64,000 nucleotides of DNA from Fulvivirga ligni (lineage in GTDB: Bacteria > Bacteroidota > Bacteroidia > Cytophagales > Cyclobacteriaceae), in the NCBI RefSeq assembly GCF_021389935.1, contig NZ_CP089979.1, positions 3,639,001 to 3,703,000 on the forward strand. The letters run 5' to 3'. The position numbers were made by a program, and so were the translations under genes. Shown piece after piece: positions 8,842-42,535 of the stretch. The notes under the pieces are model-generated. The model had not been told where the DNA came from, did not search any database, and was given only the letters and a program-made list of their open reading frames with translations. The first letter of the stretch is position 1. Every line of letters begins with the position of its first letter.

Positions 8842-9849
8842 CTACTCATAAAACCCCACCGCTTCTTTGAGCTTTTTATGAATCCTTTGCCTTAAACTCT
8901 CGGGTTTAATTACCTCGATAGAATTGCCAAAACCAAGTATTTCTCTTTCCAACTCAACGTTGATCTGTACTTTAAGCATTATTTCCACCCCTTCGGAAGA
9001 TGATGAGATAATCTCTTGGGAATGGTGTAGTGGTTTGGTTACGACATAAGGTGCGTTTTTCCGGTCTATGCGTAGGTGAATATTCCTGGGCCTTACATTT
9101 TGGTCAACGGAAACGCCAATAACATCTTTGTAATATTTATTTGCATCAAAATCGCCATTCGGAATATATTCTTCATTTAAAATTTCAATTTCTTTTATTC
9201 TGTCTAAAGCCAATGTTATAAGTGGTTCCTTGGCACTTTTTCGCCCTACTATAAACCACCGGTTCCGGAATTCTTTCAGTAGGTACGGGTGTATTCGGAT
9301 GGGATTAGCCTTTCTTGCCTTAAACGATTGGTAAAGCAGCCTTATTACCTGCTTCTTTTGTATGGCCTTGTAGATTTCATCTATAAATTCGATACCACGT
9401 AGTCGCTCATTAGTTTCTAGATGTATAATTGATTTTTGCTTATTTTTCTCTGAATAAACTTTGTCCTCCAGCCTCTGAATCATTCCAGTCATCTCCTGAA
9501 AGTGCGAGAATCCTTTAAATTGCCTTAAGATGTCGACCACCTCATTCAATTTGTTTAGATCATTATCTGTTAAAGGACTATTGGTGATAGAATAATCAGC
9601 AACTTCATAGGTGTAATACTTTCTTTCCTTCACTATGATGGGCGCATTGTAGCCCAACTTGTCACTGCGCATCATCTGTATGTCCATCTGAACTGTGCGC
9701 TTGCTTACACCTTTGTCAATGCCTTCATATTCATACAGAGCCTCTGAGCAAGCATCTATAAGATCCTCCAACGTCCATTGTCGATATCTGTTTCTCAGGC
9801 ATTTATCGATGGTATTGTATCGTATTAAAGCATTTCTATTGACTGGCAT
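8842..9849 (-). CDS. WYL-domain transcriptional regulator of the RNA-repair genes
   Basis: A 335-residue regulator: an N-terminal DNA-binding part (about 1-90, including the helix-turn-helix region VSKRTVQMDIQMMRS) followed by a WYL domain (about 150-240, with the IHPYLLKEFRNRWFIVGR segment that defines the family) and a WCX-like C-terminus. WYL proteins bind a ligand or nucleic acid and control DNA- or RNA-damage and defence genes. This gene is divergent from hen1/pnkp, and the shared 101-bp gap holds a 19-bp palindrome that recurs before the second repair unit. I infer that it controls both units. The start ATG at 9849 fits the family N-terminus. Whether it activates or represses cannot be read directly, but the lack of a -33 TTG at both targets favours activation. 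Confidence 0.9.
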   Translation of the reverse strand: MPVNRNALIRYNTIDKCLRNRYRQWTLEDLIDACSEALYEYEGIDKGVSKRTVQMDIQMMRSDKLGYNAPIIVKERKYYTYEVADYSITNSPLTDNDLNKLNEVVDILRQFKGFSHFQEMTGMIQRLEDKVYSEKNKQKSIIHLETNERLRGIEFIDEIYKAIQKKQVIRLLYQSFKARKANPIRIHPYLLKEFRNRWFIVGRKSAKEPLITLALDRIKEIEILNEEYIPNGDFDANKYYKDVIGVSVDQNVRPRNIHLRIDRKNAPYVVTKPLHHSQEIISSSSEGVEIMLKVQINVELEREILGFGNSIEVIKPESLRQRIHKKLKEAVGFYE

Positions 9850-9886: not shown

Positions 9887-9922
9887 TACGCAAAAAGACT
9901 GCGTAATATGTACTTTGCTTTG
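9887..9922 (+). promoter_or_regulatory. Operator palindrome and promoter of hen1-pnkp
   Basis: A perfect inverted repeat TACGCA-N7-TGCGTA occupies 9887-9905. Nine bases further on, 9915-9922 reads TTGCTTTG, one base from the Bacteroidota -7 consensus TAnnTTTG. No -33 TTG is present because the palindrome occupies that position. The same layout recurs at 13989-14024. This places transcription start near 9929, ahead of the hen1 ATG at 9951. The likely binding protein is the divergent WYL regulator. Confidence 0.75.
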
Positions 9923-9950
9923 TAATCAATTATTACTGAAGAAATATAAA

Positions 9951-11327
9951 ATGCTATTAAAAATATCTACGAATCGAGCTAATGCCAGAGAGGTGAGTTT
10001 TCTTTTTCATAAGCACCCGGACCGACTACAATCGGTGGAGCTACCTTTTGGTAAGGCGCACATATTTTATCCCAAAGCTGATCAGGATGAATGCGCTATC
10101 TGTCTGGTGCTGGATATTAACCCAGTTAGCCTTACCAGAAATAATCAGTCCAATAATGCCGATTTTGCACTATCACACTATGTGAATGACAGGCCTTACG
10201 TTGCTTCCTCCTACATGAGTGTAGCCATTTCAAAGGCTTTCAGCACGGCTATGAACGGTACTTGTAAGGATCATCCTGAATTAGTAAATGAACAAATTCC
10301 TTTTGACATAAAAATAGCGGTAATGTTTGCACCTAAAGGTGGGGAAATACTTATCCGAAGGTTATTTGAACCCCTTAATTATGAAGTGGAAGTGCAAAGA
10401 CATACGTTGGATGAAGCTTTTCCTGAATGGGGTGAAAGCCGGTACTTTTCGGTCAATCTGAAGGGAACGCAGAGGTTGATGGATGTATTAACGCATTTGT
10501 ATGTACTTATTCCGTCTTTGGATACACACAAGCATTATTGGGTGAGTAATGCTGAGGTAGAAAAGCTCCTGAGGAAAGGTGAAAACTGGCTGGCCGGTCA
10601 TCCTGAAAAGGATCAGATTACCAAAAGGTATTTGAAAGGTATTGCAAATCTTACCAGAAGTGCCTTTGATCAGCTTAATGAAGCTATTGAAAGCAACGAT
10701 GATGTGTCCGAAGAAACACAAGATACTGTCCAACAATCATTACATCAACAGCGCTTACAAATGGCATTTGATGAATTGAAAAGATCGGGAGCAACTACTG
10801 TGATAGATCTGGGCTGTGGAGAAGGTAAGTTGTTAAAGTTGTTCCTAAAAGACCCTCAATTTACCAAAATCACTGGAATGGACGTTTCGCATAAAAGTCT
10901 GCAGAAGGTGGTGGAACGTTTGCATTTAAATGAGATTTCTCCGGTTCAAAAGGAAAGAATTAGCCTCTTTCAGGGAGCGCTAACCTATAGAGATGAACGC
11001 TTAAATAATTATGAAGCAGCAGCTTTAATTGAGGTGATAGAACACCTGGATCCTGATAGAATTAAATCAATGGAAAGGGTGGTTTTTGAATATGCTAAAC
11101 CTAACACGGTAGTGCTCACCACACCCAATAGTGATTATAATGAACTGTATGAATCATTGCATGCAGGTCAGTTCAGGCACACCGATCACCGTTTTGAGTG
11201 GAGCAGAGAAGAGTTTAAACAATGGGTGAATTCTGTTTGCGAGAATTATGCCTATGAAGCTGATATTAAGTCAGTTGGAGATGAGGTGGAAGCTGTAGGA
11301 GCACCTTTCTCAGATAGCTATTTTTAA
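9951..11327 (+). CDS. hen1: Hen1, RNA 3'-terminal ribose 2'-O-methyltransferase
   Basis: A 458-residue bacterial Hen1. The N-terminal half (about 1-240) is the Hen1-specific domain that activates the ligase of Pnkp, and the C-terminal half is the methyltransferase. SAM-binding motif I is DLGCGEGKLLKLF, beginning at Asp286. The metal-binding set is Glu361 and Glu364-His365 in EVIEH, with His413 (and His410) in RHTDHRF. It methylates the 2'-OH at an RNA break before sealing, protecting the repaired tRNA from re-cleavage. I chose ATG 9951: MLLKISTNRANAREVSFLFHKHPDRLQ matches the family N-terminus in form, and the longer reading frame from GTG 9882 would begin upstream of the promoter box. pnkp follows after 33 bases. 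Confidence 0.95.
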   Translation: MLLKISTNRANAREVSFLFHKHPDRLQSVELPFGKAHIFYPKADQDECAICLVLDINPVSLTRNNQSNNADFALSHYVNDRPYVASSYMSVAISKAFSTAMNGTCKDHPELVNEQIPFDIKIAVMFAPKGGEILIRRLFEPLNYEVEVQRHTLDEAFPEWGESRYFSVNLKGTQRLMDVLTHLYVLIPSLDTHKHYWVSNAEVEKLLRKGENWLAGHPEKDQITKRYLKGIANLTRSAFDQLNEAIESNDDVSEETQDTVQQSLHQQRLQMAFDELKRSGATTVIDLGCGEGKLLKLFLKDPQFTKITGMDVSHKSLQKVVERLHLNEISPVQKERISLFQGALTYRDERLNNYEAAALIEVIEHLDPDRIKSMERVVFEYAKPNTVVLTTPNSDYNELYESLHAGQFRHTDHRFEWSREEFKQWVNSVCENYAYEADIKSVGDEVEAVGAPFSDSYF

Positions 11328-11360: not shown

Positions 11361-13940
11361 ATGGAAAATAGAGAATTAAATATACCTGAATTATCATTGG
11401 TGGTGTTGGTCGGTATTTCAGGATCAGGCAAATCGACTTTTGCCAAAAGGCTTTTTAAAGAAACTGAAGTGATCTCATCCGATAGATGTAGAGCTTTAGT
11501 TTCAGATAATGAAAACGATCAATCGGCTACTACAGATGCCTTTGAATTGGTTCATTACATAGCTGCCAAAAGATTAAAGAATGGATTACTCACAGTAATA
11601 GATGCGACTAATGTACAGTCTGATTCCAGAAAGCCATTGGTTGCACTAGCGAAGAAGTACCACTGCTTGCCGGTGGCCATAGTGCTTGACGTGCCTGAAA
11701 AGGAATGTCAGTTGAGGAACGAAAGCAGAGATGATCGGAATTTTGGTAATCATGTGGTGCGCCAACAAAGGTCTCAGTTGAGAAGGTCAATCAAAAGCCT
11801 GAAAAGGGAAGGGTTCAGACACATTCATGTTTTAAAATCCGTTGAGGAGATAGATGCAGTATCGAATATTAAAAGGGATAGCTTATATAATGATAAGAAG
11901 CATGAATCTGGTCCTTTTGATATAGTTGGTGACGTTCATGGCTGTTTTCTGGAATTAAAAGAGCTATTGAAAAAACTAACCTATCAGATTGAAGATGTCG
12001 ATTATTCCAATGAAACATTTGGTTACCGTGTTACTCATCCCGAGGGTCGAAGAGTAGTTTTTGTGGGAGATTTGGTTGACCGTGGGCCAGATTCACCGGC
12101 TGTACTTAAGTTGGTAATGAGCATGGTGAATAGTGGTGTGGCATTTTGCGTTCCCGGAAATCATGATATGAAATTGCAGAAATACCTCAATGGTAAGAAT
12201 GTGCAAATAAAGCATGGTTTAGAAAAAACGGTTGAGCAATTGCTGCATGAATCTGATGATTTTAAATATCAGGTGAGGGAGTTTTTGTACGGTTTAGTAA
12301 GTCATTATATCTTCGATAATGGAAGGCTGGTAGTAGCCCATGCAGGTTTAAAAGAGGAAATGCAGGGTAGAGGAAGTGGAGCGGTGAGGTCTTTTTGTAT
12401 GTATGGTGAAACTACTGGTGAGATAGATGAGTTTGGTTTGCCCGTAAGGTATAATTGGGCGTCAGAATACAGAGGAAGGGCTAAAGTAGTATACGGACAC
12501 ACACCGGTACCAGAGGCAGAGTGGCTAAATAATACCATTGATATTGACACGGGTTGTGTTTTTGGTGGCAAATTAACTGCTTTAAGATATCCTGAGCAGG
12601 AGTTAGTTGCTGTGCAGGCTCAACAGGTTTATTCAGAGCCGGCAAGGCCATTGGAAATAAATCAGTTTACCAAAAGCCAGCAACAAGAGTATGATGATCT
12701 TCTGGATATAGCTGAGGTTACCGGAAAGCGAATAGTGAGCACCAGATTAAGGAATAATGTCACATTACCTGAGGAAAATTCAGTAGCTGCACTGGAAGCG
12801 ATGAGCAGGTTTGCCATCAACCCTAAATGGATGATTTATCTTCCTCCAACGATGTCGCCCTCAGAAACCAGTGAGTTGGAGCATTATTTGGAACATCCAC
12901 ATGAGGCGTTAAAATACTTCAGGAGCCAGGGTGTGCAGAAAGTAGTTTGTGAAGAGAAGCACATGGGATCCAGGGCTATTGTAATAGTTTGTAAGAATGC
13001 CGATGTTACAAGAGAACGATTCGGAATAGATAATGGTGAAATCGGTGCCTGCTATACCAGAACCGGGCGAGCATTTTTCAACGATAAAACGCTTGAAATG
13101 GCTTTTTTGGATCGAGTGCAGAAAGCCTTAAATCAATCAGGTTTTTGGGATAGGTTCAAAACTGATTGGGTCTGTCTGGATACGGAACTTATGCCATGGT
13201 CGGCTAAGGCTCAGGCACTTTTAAAAGATCAGTATGCAGCTGTGGGGGCTGCCGCAAGTGCGTCTTTGGATGTGGTAATTCAAGAGTTGAACATCGCTCT
13301 GGATAGGAACCTGGAAGGAGTAGAGCAGTTACTGCAAAATTATGGGCAGAAACAAGAAATGATTACCGATTTTGTGGAGGCTTATCGTAACTATTGCTGG
13401 CCTGTAAAAGGATTGGATGGATACAAACTGGCTCCTTTTCATATTCTCGCCACCGAAGGTCATGTTTACAGTGACAAAGATCATCAATGGCACATGGAGA
13501 ATATTAAACAGATGTGTGAAGTAGATCCTGAGTTTATGATTGCCACGCCATATCAGGTAATTGATTTGAATGAAGAGGATCAGCTCAGCTCTGTTGTAGA
13601 ATGGTGGACTGAATTGACCAATAAAGGAGGAGAAGGCATGGTGATAAAACCATATGATTTTATTACTCATGGTAAAAAAGGCCTGGTACAGCCAGCTGTA
13701 AAATGTAGAGGCAAAGAATATTTACGAATCATCTATGGCCCGGAATATAGTACTTCGGAAAATATGAACACGTTGAAGAACAGAGGTTTGGGGCGAAAAA
13801 GGTCGCTAGCCTTACGTGAATTTGCTTTAGGGATAGAATCTCTTGAAAGGTTTGTAAACAAGGAGCCTTTACGCAGAGTTCACGAATGTGTATTTGGTGT
13901 GCTAGCCCTTGAAAGTGAGATGGTTGATCCTCGGCTGTAA
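11361..13940 (+). CDS. pnkp: Polynucleotide kinase-phosphatase-ligase (bacterial Pnkp)
   Basis: An 859-residue three-domain RNA-repair enzyme. The N-terminal 5'-OH kinase has the P-loop GISGSGKST (about residues 18-26). The central 2',3' phosphatase is a metallophosphoesterase with GDVHGC (Asp191, His193), GDLVDRG and GNHD. The C-terminal adenylyltransferase/ligase has the motif I lysine Lys533 in EEKHMGSR and the later motif GEGMVIKP. It heals both ends of a broken RNA, and together with Hen1 it seals them. Length and domain order match the known bacterial Pnkp family. It is co-transcribed with hen1. The 191 bases after its stop hold a second copy of the operator/promoter, so the genes downstream form a separate unit. 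Confidence 0.97.
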   Translation: MENRELNIPELSLVVLVGISGSGKSTFAKRLFKETEVISSDRCRALVSDNENDQSATTDAFELVHYIAAKRLKNGLLTVIDATNVQSDSRKPLVALAKKYHCLPVAIVLDVPEKECQLRNESRDDRNFGNHVVRQQRSQLRRSIKSLKREGFRHIHVLKSVEEIDAVSNIKRDSLYNDKKHESGPFDIVGDVHGCFLELKELLKKLTYQIEDVDYSNETFGYRVTHPEGRRVVFVGDLVDRGPDSPAVLKLVMSMVNSGVAFCVPGNHDMKLQKYLNGKNVQIKHGLEKTVEQLLHESDDFKYQVREFLYGLVSHYIFDNGRLVVAHAGLKEEMQGRGSGAVRSFCMYGETTGEIDEFGLPVRYNWASEYRGRAKVVYGHTPVPEAEWLNNTIDIDTGCVFGGKLTALRYPEQELVAVQAQQVYSEPARPLEINQFTKSQQQEYDDLLDIAEVTGKRIVSTRLRNNVTLPEENSVAALEAMSRFAINPKWMIYLPPTMSPSETSELEHYLEHPHEALKYFRSQGVQKVVCEEKHMGSRAIVIVCKNADVTRERFGIDNGEIGACYTRTGRAFFNDKTLEMAFLDRVQKALNQSGFWDRFKTDWVCLDTELMPWSAKAQALLKDQYAAVGAAASASLDVVIQELNIALDRNLEGVEQLLQNYGQKQEMITDFVEAYRNYCWPVKGLDGYKLAPFHILATEGHVYSDKDHQWHMENIKQMCEVDPEFMIATPYQVIDLNEEDQLSSVVEWWTELTNKGGEGMVIKPYDFITHGKKGLVQPAVKCRGKEYLRIIYGPEYSTSENMNTLKNRGLGRKRSLALREFALGIESLERFVNKEPLRRVHECVFGVLALESEMVDPRL

Positions 13941-13988
13941 TTGATTTCTCAACTGCTAAATTTTCATTAATTAAAAAATAATTTCCAT

Positions 13989-14024
13989 TACGCAAAAACA
14001 ATGCGTAGTGGGTGCTTTAGTTTG
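13989..14024 (+). promoter_or_regulatory. Second operator palindrome and promoter (tRNA-like/RlaP unit)
   Basis: TACGCA-N7-TGCGTA at 13989-14007 is followed nine bases later by TTAGTTTG at 14017-14024, a -7-like box. Half-sites, spacer length, A-rich spacer start and offset to the -7 box are identical to the site before hen1. No -33 TTG is visible. The site drives the small genes, the tRNA-like RNA and the two nucleotidyltransferase genes, and marks them as part of the regulon of the WYL regulator. Start of transcription is expected near 14031, leaving a leader of about 100 bases. Confidence 0.75.
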
Positions 14025-14132: not shown

Positions 14133-14366
14133 GTGAAATTAAGTGAAGATTTAAAAAGTAGAATATTTGACGTCATTTTAGGTTCCGCTACTCTCAAAGA
14201 TTTTGAGCAATGGGTTTATCAGCAAGAGGATTTGCTAGAAAGAATTAATGAAGACTTCTATCTTTTTCTTTTTGCATTTAACTATGGTCAACCAAATGCT
14301 TTTAGAGAATTCACCAAGATGGTTAATCGCTATTTTGGTGATGTAAAATGGGACTCGAAGCCTTAG
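14133..14366 (+). CDS. Hypothetical protein, probable N-terminal part of a split gene
   Basis: A 77-residue acidic protein from a GTG start, first gene of the second repair unit. Sequence features are an amphipathic helix (LKDFEQWVYQQEDLLERI) followed by an EDFYLFLFAFNYG segment. This composition recalls small all-helical proteins of about 155 residues found near defence genes, but I cannot name a family with confidence. It overlaps the next small frame by 19 bases and stops just where that one begins. A single lost base near 14350 would explain both as one broken protein. Translational coupling of two genuine subunits is the alternative. Confidence 0.55.
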   Translation: MKLSEDLKSRIFDVILGSATLKDFEQWVYQQEDLLERINEDFYLFLFAFNYGQPNAFREFTKMVNRYFGDVKWDSKP

Positions 14367-14614
14367 CATCTGACATGTTATGTGATTTGAAAATTCAGAT
14401 TTTGAATGAATTTTCAGTCATAAGTTATAACGGTTATCCGTCATTAAATCACATATCTACTATTAGATATGCCCTTTGCGAGCCTGATATTTATGGCGAT
14501 AGTATAGAGTCTTTTGTGAAAGAGTTAACTCAAGAGTCCCTCCAATTATTAGAGAAAATAAATAAAGCCGAACAACTCGATTCGGACTTCAAATTAAAAG
14601 TATTTCTTTCTTAA
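14348..14614 (+). CDS. Hypothetical protein, probable C-terminal part of a split gene
   Basis: An 88-residue helical protein beginning at an ATG inside the previous gene and read in the -1 frame relative to it. It contains a long C-terminal helix (VKELTQESLQLLEKINKAE). Joining the two frames near 14350-14360 would give one protein of about 158 residues whose two halves are similarly acidic and helical. It ends 13 bases before the tRNA-like RNA. No function can be assigned. Its position inside the repair unit suggests a regulatory or accessory role, but that is only context. Confidence 0.5.
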   Translation: MGLEALASDMLCDLKIQILNEFSVISYNGYPSLNHISTIRYALCEPDIYGDSIESFVKELTQESLQLLEKINKAEQLDSDFKLKVFLS

Positions 14615-14627
14615 GAATAACAAACAA

Positions 14628-14842
14628 GCCCCTGTAGCTCCAAGAGGCAGAGCACGGTAAAACAGTCACTAGCCGGTTGCAGGAGTACGGGTTTCCGGAA
14701 GACAGAATCGTGGTGAATAGCCCAGTATGTCGCAGCACCGAACAGCCTCTCGGGGAAGCTTAGTAGGGAAGCGTGTTCATCCCGGCTCCATGCTAATCTC
14801 GATATTTTCGGGAGAGTGCGGGTTCAAATCCCGTCGGGGGCT
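14628..14842 (+). ncRNA. tRNA-like RNA with a ~160-nt insertion replacing the anticodon arm
   Basis: The ends fold as a tRNA. The acceptor stem is GCCCCTG (14628-14634) with CGGGGGC (14835-14841): seven pairs including one G-T. TA follows, then the D stem GCTC/GAGC (14637-14640, 14650-14653) with loop CAAGAGGCA holding the GG pair. The T stem GCGGG/CCCGT (14818-14822, 14830-14834) encloses the canonical loop TTCAAAT. Between the base after the D stem and the T stem are 163 bases instead of about 22. Hairpins visible inside are 14711-14715/14736-14740, 14751-14755/14780-14784 enclosing GCTT/AAGC with a 7-base loop (14758-14772), and 14797-14802/14808-14815 just before the T stem. No encoded CCA. 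It lies inside an operon, 13 bases after one gene and 4 before the next ATG. Confidence 0.75.
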
Positions 14843-14846
14843 CTTA

Positions 14847-15626
14847 ATGAAATTAATGATGCAAACAATAATCAAATCAAGGCTTCAGCAGATTGAAGAA
14901 GAAAAATCAGTGCGCATATTATATGCCTGCGAAACTGGTTCCAGGGCGTGGGGATTTCCATCTCCTGACAGTGATTACGATGTCAGGTGTATCTATGCCG
15001 AAAAGCTTGACTGGCACCTGTCACTTCGTGCCAGAAAAGATACTTTTACCAGGCCTATTAATGATGATCTGGATATAACCGGTTGGGAAATCAACAAGGT
15101 GCTGCATTTGCTATGGAAATCTAATGCACCATTGCTTGAGCGTTTGCAATCGCCCATCATTTATGAGCTAAAAAGTAAAGAGATTCTTGATGGACTGTGG
15201 GAGTTGGCAGGAGATTGCTTTTCTCCTATTGCTACTATGCACCACTACCACAGAATGGCTAAGAAGTACTATGATATATGCTATACTTCCGGAAATGAGG
15301 TGAAATTGAAAAGCTACTTCTATGCGATAAGAGCAGTTTTATGCGCAAGTTGGGTGCGTGAGAAAATGGCTATTCCTCAAATTGAAATGAATCTCATGTT
15401 CGAGCTTCTTCAACCTGAGACTCGGGATAAAGTAGAGGAGCTTATCTTGTTGAAGTCTACCAAAAATGAAGATTATAGACACGAGAGAGAACCTGTGTTA
15501 GATGAGTACTTGAAAGCTCAAATTGGTTTAAATGAGGCAATTGCTAATCATCTGCCAGGAGCAAAGAAAAGAGATATTGACCAACTAGATGATTTTTACA
15601 GGCGAGTAATTACCGAAAAGCTATGA
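14847..15626 (+). CDS. RlaP/YcgL-type predicted nucleotidyltransferase, first copy
   Basis: A 259-residue protein of the Pol-beta nucleotidyltransferase superfamily (COG3541, called RlaP when found beside RNA ligases). The active-site pattern is visible: GSRAWGF, then DSDYDVR, giving the Gly-Ser and Asp-x-Asp metal-binding residues. A helical C-terminal half follows, with a YYDICYTSGNEVKLKSYFYAIRA block. I use ATG 14847; ATGs at 14856 and 14859 are also possible, and reading further upstream would run through the tRNA-like RNA. The RNA ends only four bases before this start, so the two are linked. Adding nucleotides to RNA 3' ends, perhaps those of the tRNA-like RNA, is plausible but inferred. 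It overlaps the second copy by ATGA. Confidence 0.82.
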   Translation: MKLMMQTIIKSRLQQIEEEKSVRILYACETGSRAWGFPSPDSDYDVRCIYAEKLDWHLSLRARKDTFTRPINDDLDITGWEINKVLHLLWKSNAPLLERLQSPIIYELKSKEILDGLWELAGDCFSPIATMHHYHRMAKKYYDICYTSGNEVKLKSYFYAIRAVLCASWVREKMAIPQIEMNLMFELLQPETRDKVEELILLKSTKNEDYRHEREPVLDEYLKAQIGLNEAIANHLPGAKKRDIDQLDDFYRRVITEKL

Positions 15627-16672
15627 CCATTGAAGAACTGAAAAATAAAGACATGATCATTTTCGAGTGCCAGAGCGGAAGCCATGCTTATGGACTGGCC
15701 ACAGAAGATTCTGATCTTGACATAAAAGGTGTCTTCATATTGCCTGAGGATGAATATTTTGGGCTTAGATATGTAGAGCAGGTGAGTAATGATAGCAATG
15801 ACATTGTTTATTATGAACTCAAGCGGTTTGTTGATTTACTTACTAAAAGTAACCCAACGGCTTTGGAGCTTTTGCACACACCTGATGAGAGTGTTTTGTA
15901 TATGCATCCGGTATTCGAGGCAATTAGAGGTAAGCAGTTTTTGTCAAAGAAATGTCTCGATACTTTTGGTGGCTATGCCATGACACAGGTAAAAAAGGCC
16001 AAAGGTCTGAAAAAGAAGATTCTCAACCCTGTAGATAAAGAACGCAAGAGCATATTGGATTTTTGCTATGTAGCAGATCATCAGGGATCAGTACCAGTGA
16101 AGGAGTACTTGAAGTCGCATAAGCTTATTCAGGAAGAATGTGGCTTGTCGAAGCTGCCAAATATGAATGAAATGTATGCTCTTTATTATGGTGATGATGC
16201 ATTTCATGGTATCCAAGGTTCTGATAATGCAAATGATGTTACGTTGAGTTCTATACCTAAGGGACTTCAACCTATGGCATTCATGTCCTTCAACAAATCG
16301 GCCTATTCCAGCTATTGCAAGGAATATAAGGAGTATTGGGAGTGGGTGGACAAGCGAAATGACAACCGCTATAAAAACACCTTACAGAATGGAAAGAACT
16401 ACGATGCCAAAAATATGATGCACACCTTCAGATTGCTGAAAATGTGCGAAGAAATAGGGAGGGAAGGTAAACTTCATGTGAAGCGGCAGGATCGTGAGTA
16501 TTTATTAAGCATAAAAAGAGGTGAATTTGAGTACAACGATCTTTTGCTTCAAACGGAAATGGCAATCGATCAATTGAAATTGATTTATCAAGAGTCATCA
16601 TTGGCCAATGAGCCTGATTTTGAAGAATTAAACAGGTTGTTGATTTTGATGAGGAGGGAGTATTATGGTTAG
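15623..16672 (+). CDS. RlaP/YcgL-type predicted nucleotidyltransferase, second copy
   Basis: A 349-residue relative of the preceding protein. The nucleotidyltransferase pattern is GSHAYGLATEDSDLDIKG, with the Asp-x-Asp pair intact. The same helical block follows but with an insertion of about 90 residues (roughly 165-260), rich in aromatic and charged residues, that the first copy lacks. The start codon overlaps the stop of the first copy by four bases (ATGA), so the two are translationally coupled and may form a hetero-dimer. Proteins of this family are recurrent partners of RNA ligases. Its substrate is not known to me. It is the last gene of the repair island; the next gene has its own promoter. 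Confidence 0.82.
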   Translation: MTIEELKNKDMIIFECQSGSHAYGLATEDSDLDIKGVFILPEDEYFGLRYVEQVSNDSNDIVYYELKRFVDLLTKSNPTALELLHTPDESVLYMHPVFEAIRGKQFLSKKCLDTFGGYAMTQVKKAKGLKKKILNPVDKERKSILDFCYVADHQGSVPVKEYLKSHKLIQEECGLSKLPNMNEMYALYYGDDAFHGIQGSDNANDVTLSSIPKGLQPMAFMSFNKSAYSSYCKEYKEYWEWVDKRNDNRYKNTLQNGKNYDAKNMMHTFRLLKMCEEIGREGKLHVKRQDREYLLSIKRGEFEYNDLLLQTEMAIDQLKLIYQESSLANEPDFEELNRLLILMRREYYG

Positions 16673-16813: not shown

Positions 16814-17278
16814 GTGAAGCGTTATAATATTGAATTATATAAGTCATTTGACAAAACAACCTTTTATACCATTCATGAGGAGAGCAAGAAGGTGAGTGAG
16901 ACAGATGATTTCTTCTTACGCTTTAAGGATGAGAAAAAATTTCAAAGAGATGTTAATCTCATTAGATATTGGCTTGGAAAAATTGGCAATGAATATGGAG
17001 CACAAGAAAGACGTTTCCGACCAGAGGGAAAAGGAAGTGCTATTCCCATAGAATCTTCTAAACTTAGATTATACTGTTACAGAATTAATGAGAGAATTAT
17101 AATTCTTGGTAACGGAGGTGAAAAGACATCTCAGAAAGTACAGGATAGTCCTGATGCTTTTCCGCATTTTGAAACTATCAATCATTTAGCCTACATTATA
17201 AATTTGAAAAAACAAAAAGGAGAAATCAGTTTTGCTGAAAATCAAATTCAAGGTGATTTATCCTTTTATATAAAATAA
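16814..17278 (+). CDS. Toxin component of a toxin-antitoxin-chaperone module (RelE/HigB-like, tentative)
   Basis: A 154-residue basic protein from a GTG start. The segment RLYCYRINERIIILGNGGEKTSQKVQD followed by a C-terminal helical region resembles the strand pair and basic residues of RelE/HigB-type mRNA-cleaving toxins, but the similarity is remote. The assignment rests mainly on order: ten bases later comes an HTH antitoxin-like gene and then a SecB-like chaperone gene, the order toxin, antitoxin, chaperone known from TAC systems such as higBA1-Rv1957 of Mycobacterium tuberculosis. It is therefore likely to inhibit translation by cutting RNA. It is read from a consensus promoter with almost no leader. 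Confidence 0.65.
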   Translation: MKRYNIELYKSFDKTTFYTIHEESKKVSETDDFFLRFKDEKKFQRDVNLIRYWLGKIGNEYGAQERRFRPEGKGSAIPIESSKLRLYCYRINERIIILGNGGEKTSQKVQDSPDAFPHFETINHLAYIINLKKQKGEISFAENQIQGDLSFYIK

Positions 17279-17287
17279 ACTACCACT

Positions 17288-17683
17288 ATGAGCGAAATTT
17301 TTGATTCAATCGAGGTAAGTGACGAAGTAAAAAGATTTGTAGATCATTCATTTGATATATCTGATCAAATTTACAACATTTTAGAAAAGCAGGGTAAAAC
17401 ACAAAGAGACCTTGCTCGTATGTTGGGGAAAAAGGAGTCTGAAGTGAGTAAGTGGATGCAGGGAACCCACAATTTTACATTGAAAAGCATTGCTAAAATA
17501 GAAGCTGTATTAGGTGAAAGCATTATTACTTGCACAGACAGAGCTAAGAAAGCTTATCACAAAACAAAGTTAGTTCCTGTCAGGGTCAATAACTTTTCTT
17601 TATCTAAGAAAATTTTGACTCAGGAAGTAGAATGGAAAAAGAGTGATAAAAAAGTCTTCACTGATGGATTAAAAATAGCTTAA
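17288..17683 (+). CDS. XRE-family HTH antitoxin with C-terminal chaperone-addiction tail
   Basis: A 131-residue protein. Residues about 30-82 form an XRE/Cro helix-turn-helix (KTQRDLARMLGKKESEVSKWMQG), as in HigA. A tail of about 45 residues (KAYHKTKLVPVRVNNFSLSKKILTQ onward, shown here only in part by its key residues Val-Pro-Val and Trp) extends beyond the DNA-binding domain. In TAC systems such a tail, called ChAD, makes the antitoxin unstable unless a SecB-like chaperone binds it. The stop codon overlaps the start of the chaperone gene (TAATG), which fits tight coupling. It probably represses its own promoter. Confidence 0.78.
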   Translation: MSEIFDSIEVSDEVKRFVDHSFDISDQIYNILEKQGKTQRDLARMLGKKESEVSKWMQGTHNFTLKSIAKIEAVLGESIITCTDRAKKAYHKTKLVPVRVNNFSLSKKILTQEVEWKKSDKKVFTDGLKIA

Positions 17684-42430: not shown

Positions 42431-42535
42431 CTCTTATCAAGAAAGGCTGAGGGAAATGGCCCTGCGAAGCCTTAGCAACCGACCAATTAGGATCAGGTGC
42501 TAAATCCATCTCCGCAAAACGGAGGAAGATAAGTT
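42431..42535 (+). promoter_or_regulatory. SAM-I (S-box) riboswitch aptamer
   Basis: The S-box consensus parts appear in order: CTCTTATC opening P1 (42431-42438), AGGCTGAGGGAAATGGCCCTGC, shown by its GAGGGA-TGGCCC core, AGCCTTAGCAACC, then GGTGCTAAATCC, and GATAAG (42528-42533) closing P1 with CTTATC (42433-42438). It binds S-adenosylmethionine. TAAGTTA (42530-42536) can instead pair with TGACTTA (42580-42586) as antiterminator, which excludes both P1 and the terminator stem. High SAM should therefore end transcription ahead of metH. Confidence 0.93.

Follow-up and report, generated by a model that had tools for sequence, protein, structure and literature searches.

A conserved tRNA-like RNA with a replaced anticodon arm is encoded among RNA-repair genes in Fulvivirga ligni

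What would a tRNA-like RNA be doing between the genes of an RNA-repair operon? The window analysed here is the whole stretch of 64,000 nucleotides of Fulvivirga ligni DNA. Its forward strand encodes a Hen1 RNA 2'-O-methyltransferase (9945–11327; Hen1_L, 6.7e-104; TIGR04074, 643.5 bits, cut-off 340) and a Pnkp kinase-phosphatase-ligase (11361–13940; PNKP_ligase, 1.1e-182; TIGR04075, 1451.3 bits, cut-off 750). Two small overlapping open reading frames (14133–14366 and 14348–14614, forward strand) precede the RNA; neither Pfam nor NCBIfam gave a match for them at E ≤ 0.01. Two RlaP nucleotidyltransferase genes follow it on the same strand (14847–15626, Pfam RlaP 5e-71; 15623–16672, 1.9e-27). The predicted role of RlaP, according to the available sections of PMC7824862, is to put back missing nucleotides ahead of ligation. 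Divergent to Hen1 is the gene for a WYL/WCX regulator (8842–9849, reverse strand; Pfam WYL 1.1e-12, WCX 4e-11). From its position, we would guess that this protein regulates the operon. Further downstream, positions 16814–17683 hold an open reading frame of 154 amino acids with no Pfam match, then a gene for an HTH_3 protein; we take this order to resemble a HigB-HigA toxin-antitoxin pair. A SAM riboswitch is located at 42431–42535 (forward strand, 83.7 bits).

The tRNA-like RNA occupies positions 14628–14842 of the forward strand. Read from the sequence, it has a tRNA-style acceptor stem, D arm and T arm. Briefly, the acceptor stem (GCCCCTG at 14628–14634, CGGGGGC at 14835–14841) forms 7 of 7 pairs. 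The D arm, GCTC-CAAGAGGCA-GAGC, spans 14637–14653 with stem strands at 14637–14640 and 14650–14653. The T arm, GCGGG-TTCAAAT-CCCGT, spans 14818–14834 and forms 5 of 5 pairs. Between the D stem and the T stem lie 164 nt. Immediately 3' of the D arm, pairwise comparison identifies the P1 hairpin CGGT(AAAA...)GCCG (14655–14675). It is followed by the P2 domain (14682–14789), in which GGAGT.CGGG (14682–14691) closes with CCCGGCTCC (14781–14789). The conserved core (14735–14773) comprises GCACCGAA (14735–14742), the hairpin GCCTCTCGGGGAAGC (14745–14759) and AGTAGGGAAGCG (14762–14773). A variable-arm-like hairpin (14792–14817) leads into the T arm. The base after the acceptor 3' strand is T14842, and the tail TCTTAAT encodes no CCA. 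The RNA begins 13 nt after the end of the upstream reading frame at 14614 and ends 4 nt before the first RlaP ATG at 14847. An earlier sequence-only reading had described the 7-pair acceptor stem, the T loop TTCAAAT, the missing CCA and these two spacings; all were found again here.

Searches with existing tools did not recognise the RNA. ARAGORN called no tRNA in the window. No Rfam 15 model, including those for YrlA, tmRNA and group I introns, matched the RNA at gathering scores. At E ≤ 10 there were five sub-threshold matches, one of them a partial tRNA match of 17 bits. The folding energy was unremarkable (z = -0.79), as it was for the relatives in loci L003 (z = 0.01) and L057 (z = -1.09). 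Hence, the case for a structured RNA is comparative.

Relatives were collected in several ways. A search for RlaP in 196 genomes of the same family gave 33 with a match and brought in L003 (genome G112), from another genus, which holds a homologous RNA. Between this RNA and that of the window, 7 of 56 predicted pairs are kept by double changes. A profile made from the two found a third member in L057, where an SPFH gene lies downstream of it. Scanning for the core pattern (GCACCGAA, 15–27 nt, AGTAGGGAAGC) gave 96 matches, in 90 genome-contig stretches and 6 viral contigs. In 82 of these, the acceptor, D and T arms were present in the right order. One that passed, L089, was dropped as a chance match (14.9 bits), and two that failed, L153 and L171, score 57.5 and 151.7 bits. 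Hence, the arm test errs both ways. The remaining 81 members and the window RNA, 82 sequences in all, were aligned with MAFFT. All 7 acceptor pairs form in 76 of the 81 members, which carry 42 different acceptor sequences. Going by record names, most of the members listed (80 of the 90 genome stretches) are from Bacteroidota; L099 is labelled Ruminococcus and L111 Myxococcota, as is L153, which was scored afterwards, Hyphomicrobiaceae.

We scored candidates with a covariance model, R1. The window RNA matches it with 85.3 bits over positions 1–202, as part of the model's training set. Support from outside the training set comes from L206, a relative of the window RNA, with 70.2 bits. In its own genome, the window copy is the only R1 match. 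At 70 bits or more, the RNA occurs in 14 of the 196 same-family genomes (7 of the 33 with RlaP and 7 of the 163 without). Stricter filters on a phylum sample left 4 of 395 genomes at 85 bits or more, counting its own. When the window RNA was compared with those 395 genomes by BLAST, the matches outside the window were all short and confined to 7 genomes; most fell in the T-arm part of the query, and two to its inner parts (L074, L075) were judged to be chance. BLAST against phages and plasmids found no match, and two relatives used as queries gave none either. Likewise, a D-arm pattern had no match in viral contigs and a protein-based scan of genome contigs found no relative of the RNA. Weak model matches (about 20–31 bits) that were read were mostly tandem ordinary tRNAs, L189 being an exception, and were not counted as members. 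Taken together, sequence comparison confirms that positions 14628–14842 encode a conserved structured RNA, a member of a large family with no matching Rfam 15 model among the searches made.

The alignment of 82 sequences supports a structure of 42 pairs in eight helices. Double compensatory changes occur at 38 of the 42 pairs, a count made on the alignment from which the structure was derived. Paired cells amount to 93.3%, compared to 70.0% for shuffled and 38–48% for slid alignments, with many rows from close relatives inflating cell counts. Covariation was 0.665, compared to 0.244 after shuffling. The counted pairs use none of the fixed letters of the core pattern; that the core columns do not vary among these sequences is by construction, the core being partly the search pattern. 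Of seven members that the covariance model found outside its training set, three have an intact core and four a changed one. In the acceptor stem, 7 of 7 pairs are doubly compensated and 99.1% of cells are paired. Double changes affect 4 of 5 pairs in the T stem, where the fifth is invariant, 3 of 5 in P1, 6 of 6 in P2 and 3 of 3 in the variable-arm-like hairpin. The weakest helix is P4 (82.7% paired). Of 81 relatives, 76 retain GG in the D loop, 70 have TTCGAAT as the T loop and 65 have A as the discriminator base; CCA follows this base in 3. The insert from D to T stem ranges from 126 to 211 nt. Consistent with what the earlier reading had predicted for a covariance model, acceptor, D and T stems thus covary in relatives that lie near repair genes elsewhere.

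The anticodon arm does not share in this conservation. An anticodon stem with 5 of 5 pairs is present in 0 of 82 family sequences, against a null expectation of about 0.9 per 82 and 243 of 328 ordinary tRNAs of the same loci. Candidate anticodon-stem segments therefore pair no better than chance, so the arm has been replaced and not interrupted. As a transfer RNA, the molecule has the acceptor, D and T arms and the elbow residues, and lacks the anticodon arm. Hence, the comparison shows an intact tRNA elbow and acceptor, with a conserved domain (P1, P2 and core) in place of the anticodon arm. The earlier reading had proposed such a tRNA mimic inside an RNA-repair operon, and both parts of that description stand. 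The window RNA forms a divergent clade with the RNAs of L162 and L206 (support 0.995). In the MAFFT alignment of all 82 sequences, the window row pairs at 1 of 3 positions in D, 3 of 5 in P1, 4 of 6 in P2, 1 of 10 in P3 and 2 of 3 in V. MAFFT thus misaligns the inner helices of the window RNA, so its inner structure was based instead on L162 and L206 as comparators. Swaps such as that from G-C to A-U in P1 of L206 support the inner helices of this clade.

Genomic context was scored by tblastn with repair proteins (E ≤ 1e-5) at 81 member loci. SPFH was found at 48, on the same strand as the RNA in 48 of 48 cases and with matches beginning 614–1860 nt downstream in 43 of 48. RtcB was found at 27 loci, TROVE at 12, RlaP at 11 and PrfH at 5; a WYL relative was found at 21. 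At least one of the five repair genes SPFH, RtcB, TROVE, RlaP and PrfH was present at 68 of 81 member loci, compared to 0 of 13 non-member matches (the twelve arm-test failures other than L153 and L171, plus L089), control loci that come from varied taxa in which Bacteroidota query proteins may be less sensitive. L153 and L171, set apart here, carry RtcB or SPFH; counting them as controls gives 2 of 15. The seven model-found members outside training had SPFH in 7, RtcB in 6 and the promoter element described below in 5. Elsewhere, Pnkp was found at 1 of 81 member loci and Hen1 at 0 of 81. Hence, the link to Hen1 and Pnkp comes from the window's genome alone. Three or more ordinary tRNAs lie at 41 of 81 loci, and several members sit within tRNA arrays. 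Of the six members on viral contigs, five have no repair gene in the stretch covered.

The closest relatives of the window RNA, in L162 and L206, lie in RtcB-PrfH-TROVE-RlaP and SPFH-RtcB operons, respectively. The same type of RNA is therefore common to different repair systems. In the stretches around RlaP of the 33 same-family genomes that have it, the RNA is near RlaP only in the window, G112 and G015. The match to the first RlaP starts 8 nt after the RNA in L102 and 10 nt after it in L168, these being match starts and not start codons. By Pfam, the window operon contains neither SPFH nor TROVE. TROVE was not found in its genome, and an SPFH gene adjoins RtcB at 6.11 Mb, remote from the window. 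With SPFH remote and a single copy of the RNA in the window, any SPFH role would be in trans.

A promoter element recurs at these loci. The element RCGCAAAAA-N3-TGCGY has 43 sites in 30 of 82 loci and none in shuffled sequence. Across all loci analysed there are 70 distinct sites, and 67 of these have TTTG starting exactly at +14, where the expectation per offset is about 0.3. In its own genome (6.5 Mb), the exact element occurs twice, both times inside the window; a reversed control gave 0. One copy, the palindromic ACGCAAAAAGACTGCGT (9888–9904, forward strand), lies between the WYL gene and Hen1, upstream of the latter. The other, ACGCAAAAACAATGCGT (13990–14006, forward strand), lies between Pnkp and the small reading frames. 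The latter likely marks the start of a transcription unit holding the RNA and both RlaP genes. Hence, the window RNA may be independent of the Hen1 promoter. As the two exact copies precede Hen1 and the RNA unit, the RNA probably shares its regulation with Hen1-Pnkp while having an element to itself. Some element sites precede RlaP operons without the RNA. Comparison across many genomes thus shows the RNA family linked to repair genes, with a shared promoter element before such operons.

In most SPFH operons the tRNA-like RNA appears to have further company. Of the 43 loci with SPFH 300–2000 nt downstream, 39 carry between one and three permuted tRNA modules in the gap by a relaxed test, for which the background was 0.015 per shuffled gap and 1 on reverse strands. 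A permuted module is T arm, acceptor hairpin and D arm, in that order. By a stricter test over whole loci, 37 of 82 have one or more. At L083:871–1045, Rfam identified two modules as partial YrlA (40.4 and 34.3 bits, gathering 69), and the plain tRNA model matched the same stretch (41.0 and 29.0 bits, gathering 29). With matches to both models, these modules may be read in either order. Modules in a row were seen in L083, L097, L103 and other loci. Perhaps, judging from their arrangement, those between the tRNA-like RNA and SPFH form a second, longer noncoding RNA. In the window's own genome, two T-arm/D-arm stretches were noted by eye upstream of SPFH (C1, about 6112720–6112560, reverse strand), and one passes the relaxed test; another pass in this genome lies inside a gene and is probably chance. 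The relaxed test found no permuted module downstream of the tRNA-like RNA in the window. Other RNAs were seen at these loci. A Flavo-1 RNA (RF01705) is located just upstream of the SPFH gene at L083:1441–1543 (54.3 bits, gathering 42). In RlaP stretches, L061:11769–11885 and L052:14333–14486 appear by eye to be tRNA-like with anticodon-loop insertions of about 50 and 85 nt; these two, and some pieces of L003, contain the motif TTACTTC.

How might such an RNA work? We suggest, with about an even chance of being right, that the window RNA is a trans-acting tRNA-mimic cofactor of an RNA-repair response. The promoter would fire under RNA damage. The tRNA shape would let RNase P and a 3' tRNA nuclease excise the RNA from the transcript of the operon, so that the RlaP message would keep a leader of only 4 nt, and CCA would be added to the excised RNA. 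Its tRNA end could then bind tRNA-handling repair enzymes (Hen1/Pnkp, RlaP and RtcB). The core domain, which would offer anticodon nucleases no anticodon, could bind a partner protein, SPFH or TROVE where these are linked and, in the window's genome, the SPFH protein of the remote locus. The RNA may offer the enzymes a scaffold or loading platform, or it may restrain them until broken tRNAs compete it off.

Other roles would fit parts of the evidence. The earlier reading had named substrate, guide, decoy and sensor, roles that look alike at the level of sequence. A decoy or sensor would titrate or sense tRNA-cleaving nucleases or tRNA-binding toxins, and so shield tRNAs or trigger the operon. 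An intact tRNA body without an anticodon would suit this role, as would the members on viral contigs and the nearby tRNA arrays, which suggest a response to tRNA loss. However, the anticodon loop is the usual target and is missing, and a plain decoy would have no need of a conserved replacement domain. In the available sections of PMC7790460, moreover, fragments of YrlA were undetected while tRNAs were cut, and competitive inhibition was only proposed. We consider this possible but unlikely. The RNA could also be a substrate, with its 3' end targeted by the RlaP nucleotidyltransferases for end restoration or tagging, so that it carries or reports their activity. This is quite unlikely: RlaP is present at so few member loci, and 7 of the 14 strongly matching same-family genomes have no RlaP match, although the acceptor and elbow are intact, CCA rarely follows the RNA and RlaP begins close behind it in the window, L102 and L168.

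The tight spacing between the upstream reading frame and the RlaP ATG would also suit a cis element, a tRNA-shaped punctuation of the mRNA for processing or translation that parts RlaP from the upstream frames. Insert and helices are nevertheless conserved where no RlaP follows closely, as in the 43 loci with a distant downstream SPFH, and several members sit in tRNA arrays; a cis role is highly unlikely. Finally, tRNA ends with an insert could denote an intron-containing tRNA or a pseudo tRNA. We regard this as extremely unlikely, given that an anticodon stem is no more frequent than chance in the 82 sequences and that the insert is conserved, covaries and has no Rfam intron match. Group I introns were not matched by Rfam at the window RNA or in relatives from 12 loci. 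In finding no group I intron, the analysis agrees with the sequence-only reading.

The cofactor interpretation can be extended to the whole family. This tRNA-shaped family with no Rfam match, in which a conserved domain replaces the anticodon arm, might supply the tRNA-repair machines of bacteria with an RNA subunit that can be exchanged between them. One type of RNA would serve RtcB-SPFH, RtcB-PrfH-TROVE and Hen1-Pnkp-RlaP operons and occur in tRNA arrays of viral contigs. It would have a dedicated promoter in bacterial operons and, in most SPFH operons, would be accompanied by a second RNA, built from one to three permuted tRNA mimics in a row. For this wider proposal, our confidence is evenly balanced. 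Enzymes are the best-known part of RNA-repair operons, and the question of how they are brought to broken tRNAs is here given a concrete, testable RNA. A conserved, anticodon-less tRNA mimic is encoded alongside enzymes from three distinct repair systems, and also on viral contigs. Model R1, the core motif and the promoter element make such operons findable by search.

Several known systems invite comparison. In tmRNA, tRNA-like ends flank a large insert, and a G3:U70 pair provides alanine identity. The window RNA resembles tmRNA (RF00023) in its ends and insert, but it has a real D stem and no RF00023 match, and G3:U70 occurs in 1 of 82 family sequences. Hence, tmRNA was rejected. YrlA (RF02553), described in the available sections of PMC7790460, is likewise a tRNA mimic in RNA-repair operons, with TROVE/Rsr. 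The Rfam model of YrlA, however, has a permuted order, running from the T arm through a closed acceptor hairpin to the D arm, whereas the window RNA has the normal order and open ends. Two loci, L165 and L040, each hold a YrlA match separate from their family member; that in L040 is partial (13876–13944; 36.1 bits, gathering 69) and lies between TROVE and the tRNA-like RNA. With no model match at the window RNA, the opposite order of parts and no TROVE in the genome, identity with YrlA was rejected. The kinship with Y RNAs that the earlier reading had considered was not borne out.

The window operon shares Hen1 and Pnkp with the Pnkp/Hen1 RNA-repair system. For that system, the available sections of PMC4411300 describe a complex of three proteins, Pnkp1, Rnl and Hen1, and mention no RNA cofactor. 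In Anabaena, a single repressor, TrcR, controls a tRNA operon of 26 genes, rtcB and a slipin gene (PMC10272220, available sections). This regulon is similar to the sets of tRNA array, RtcB and SPFH in the present family. TrcR is a cyanobacterial repressor, and 'tRNA-like' is absent as a term from the available sections of that text.

Our literature search, mostly without subscription papers, found no description of this RNA. Burroughs and Aravind (2016, NAR 44:8525) reportedly assigned a 'novel tRNA-like molecule' to SPFH/band-7 RNA-repair modules as their cognate RNA. Like the family here, that molecule is a tRNA-like noncoding RNA tied to SPFH repair modules, and the comparison is one of descriptions. 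The window copy differs in lying in a Hen1/Pnkp/RlaP operon without SPFH. Because of the SPFH linkage of the family, the two are likely identical, as judged from genomic context. Alternatively, the 2016 name could refer to the permuted modules between the RNA and SPFH. The earlier suggestion that this form was undescribed is probably wrong. We conclude that this kind of RNA is probably already known and not wholly new, while its anatomy and its Hen1/Pnkp setting may be new.
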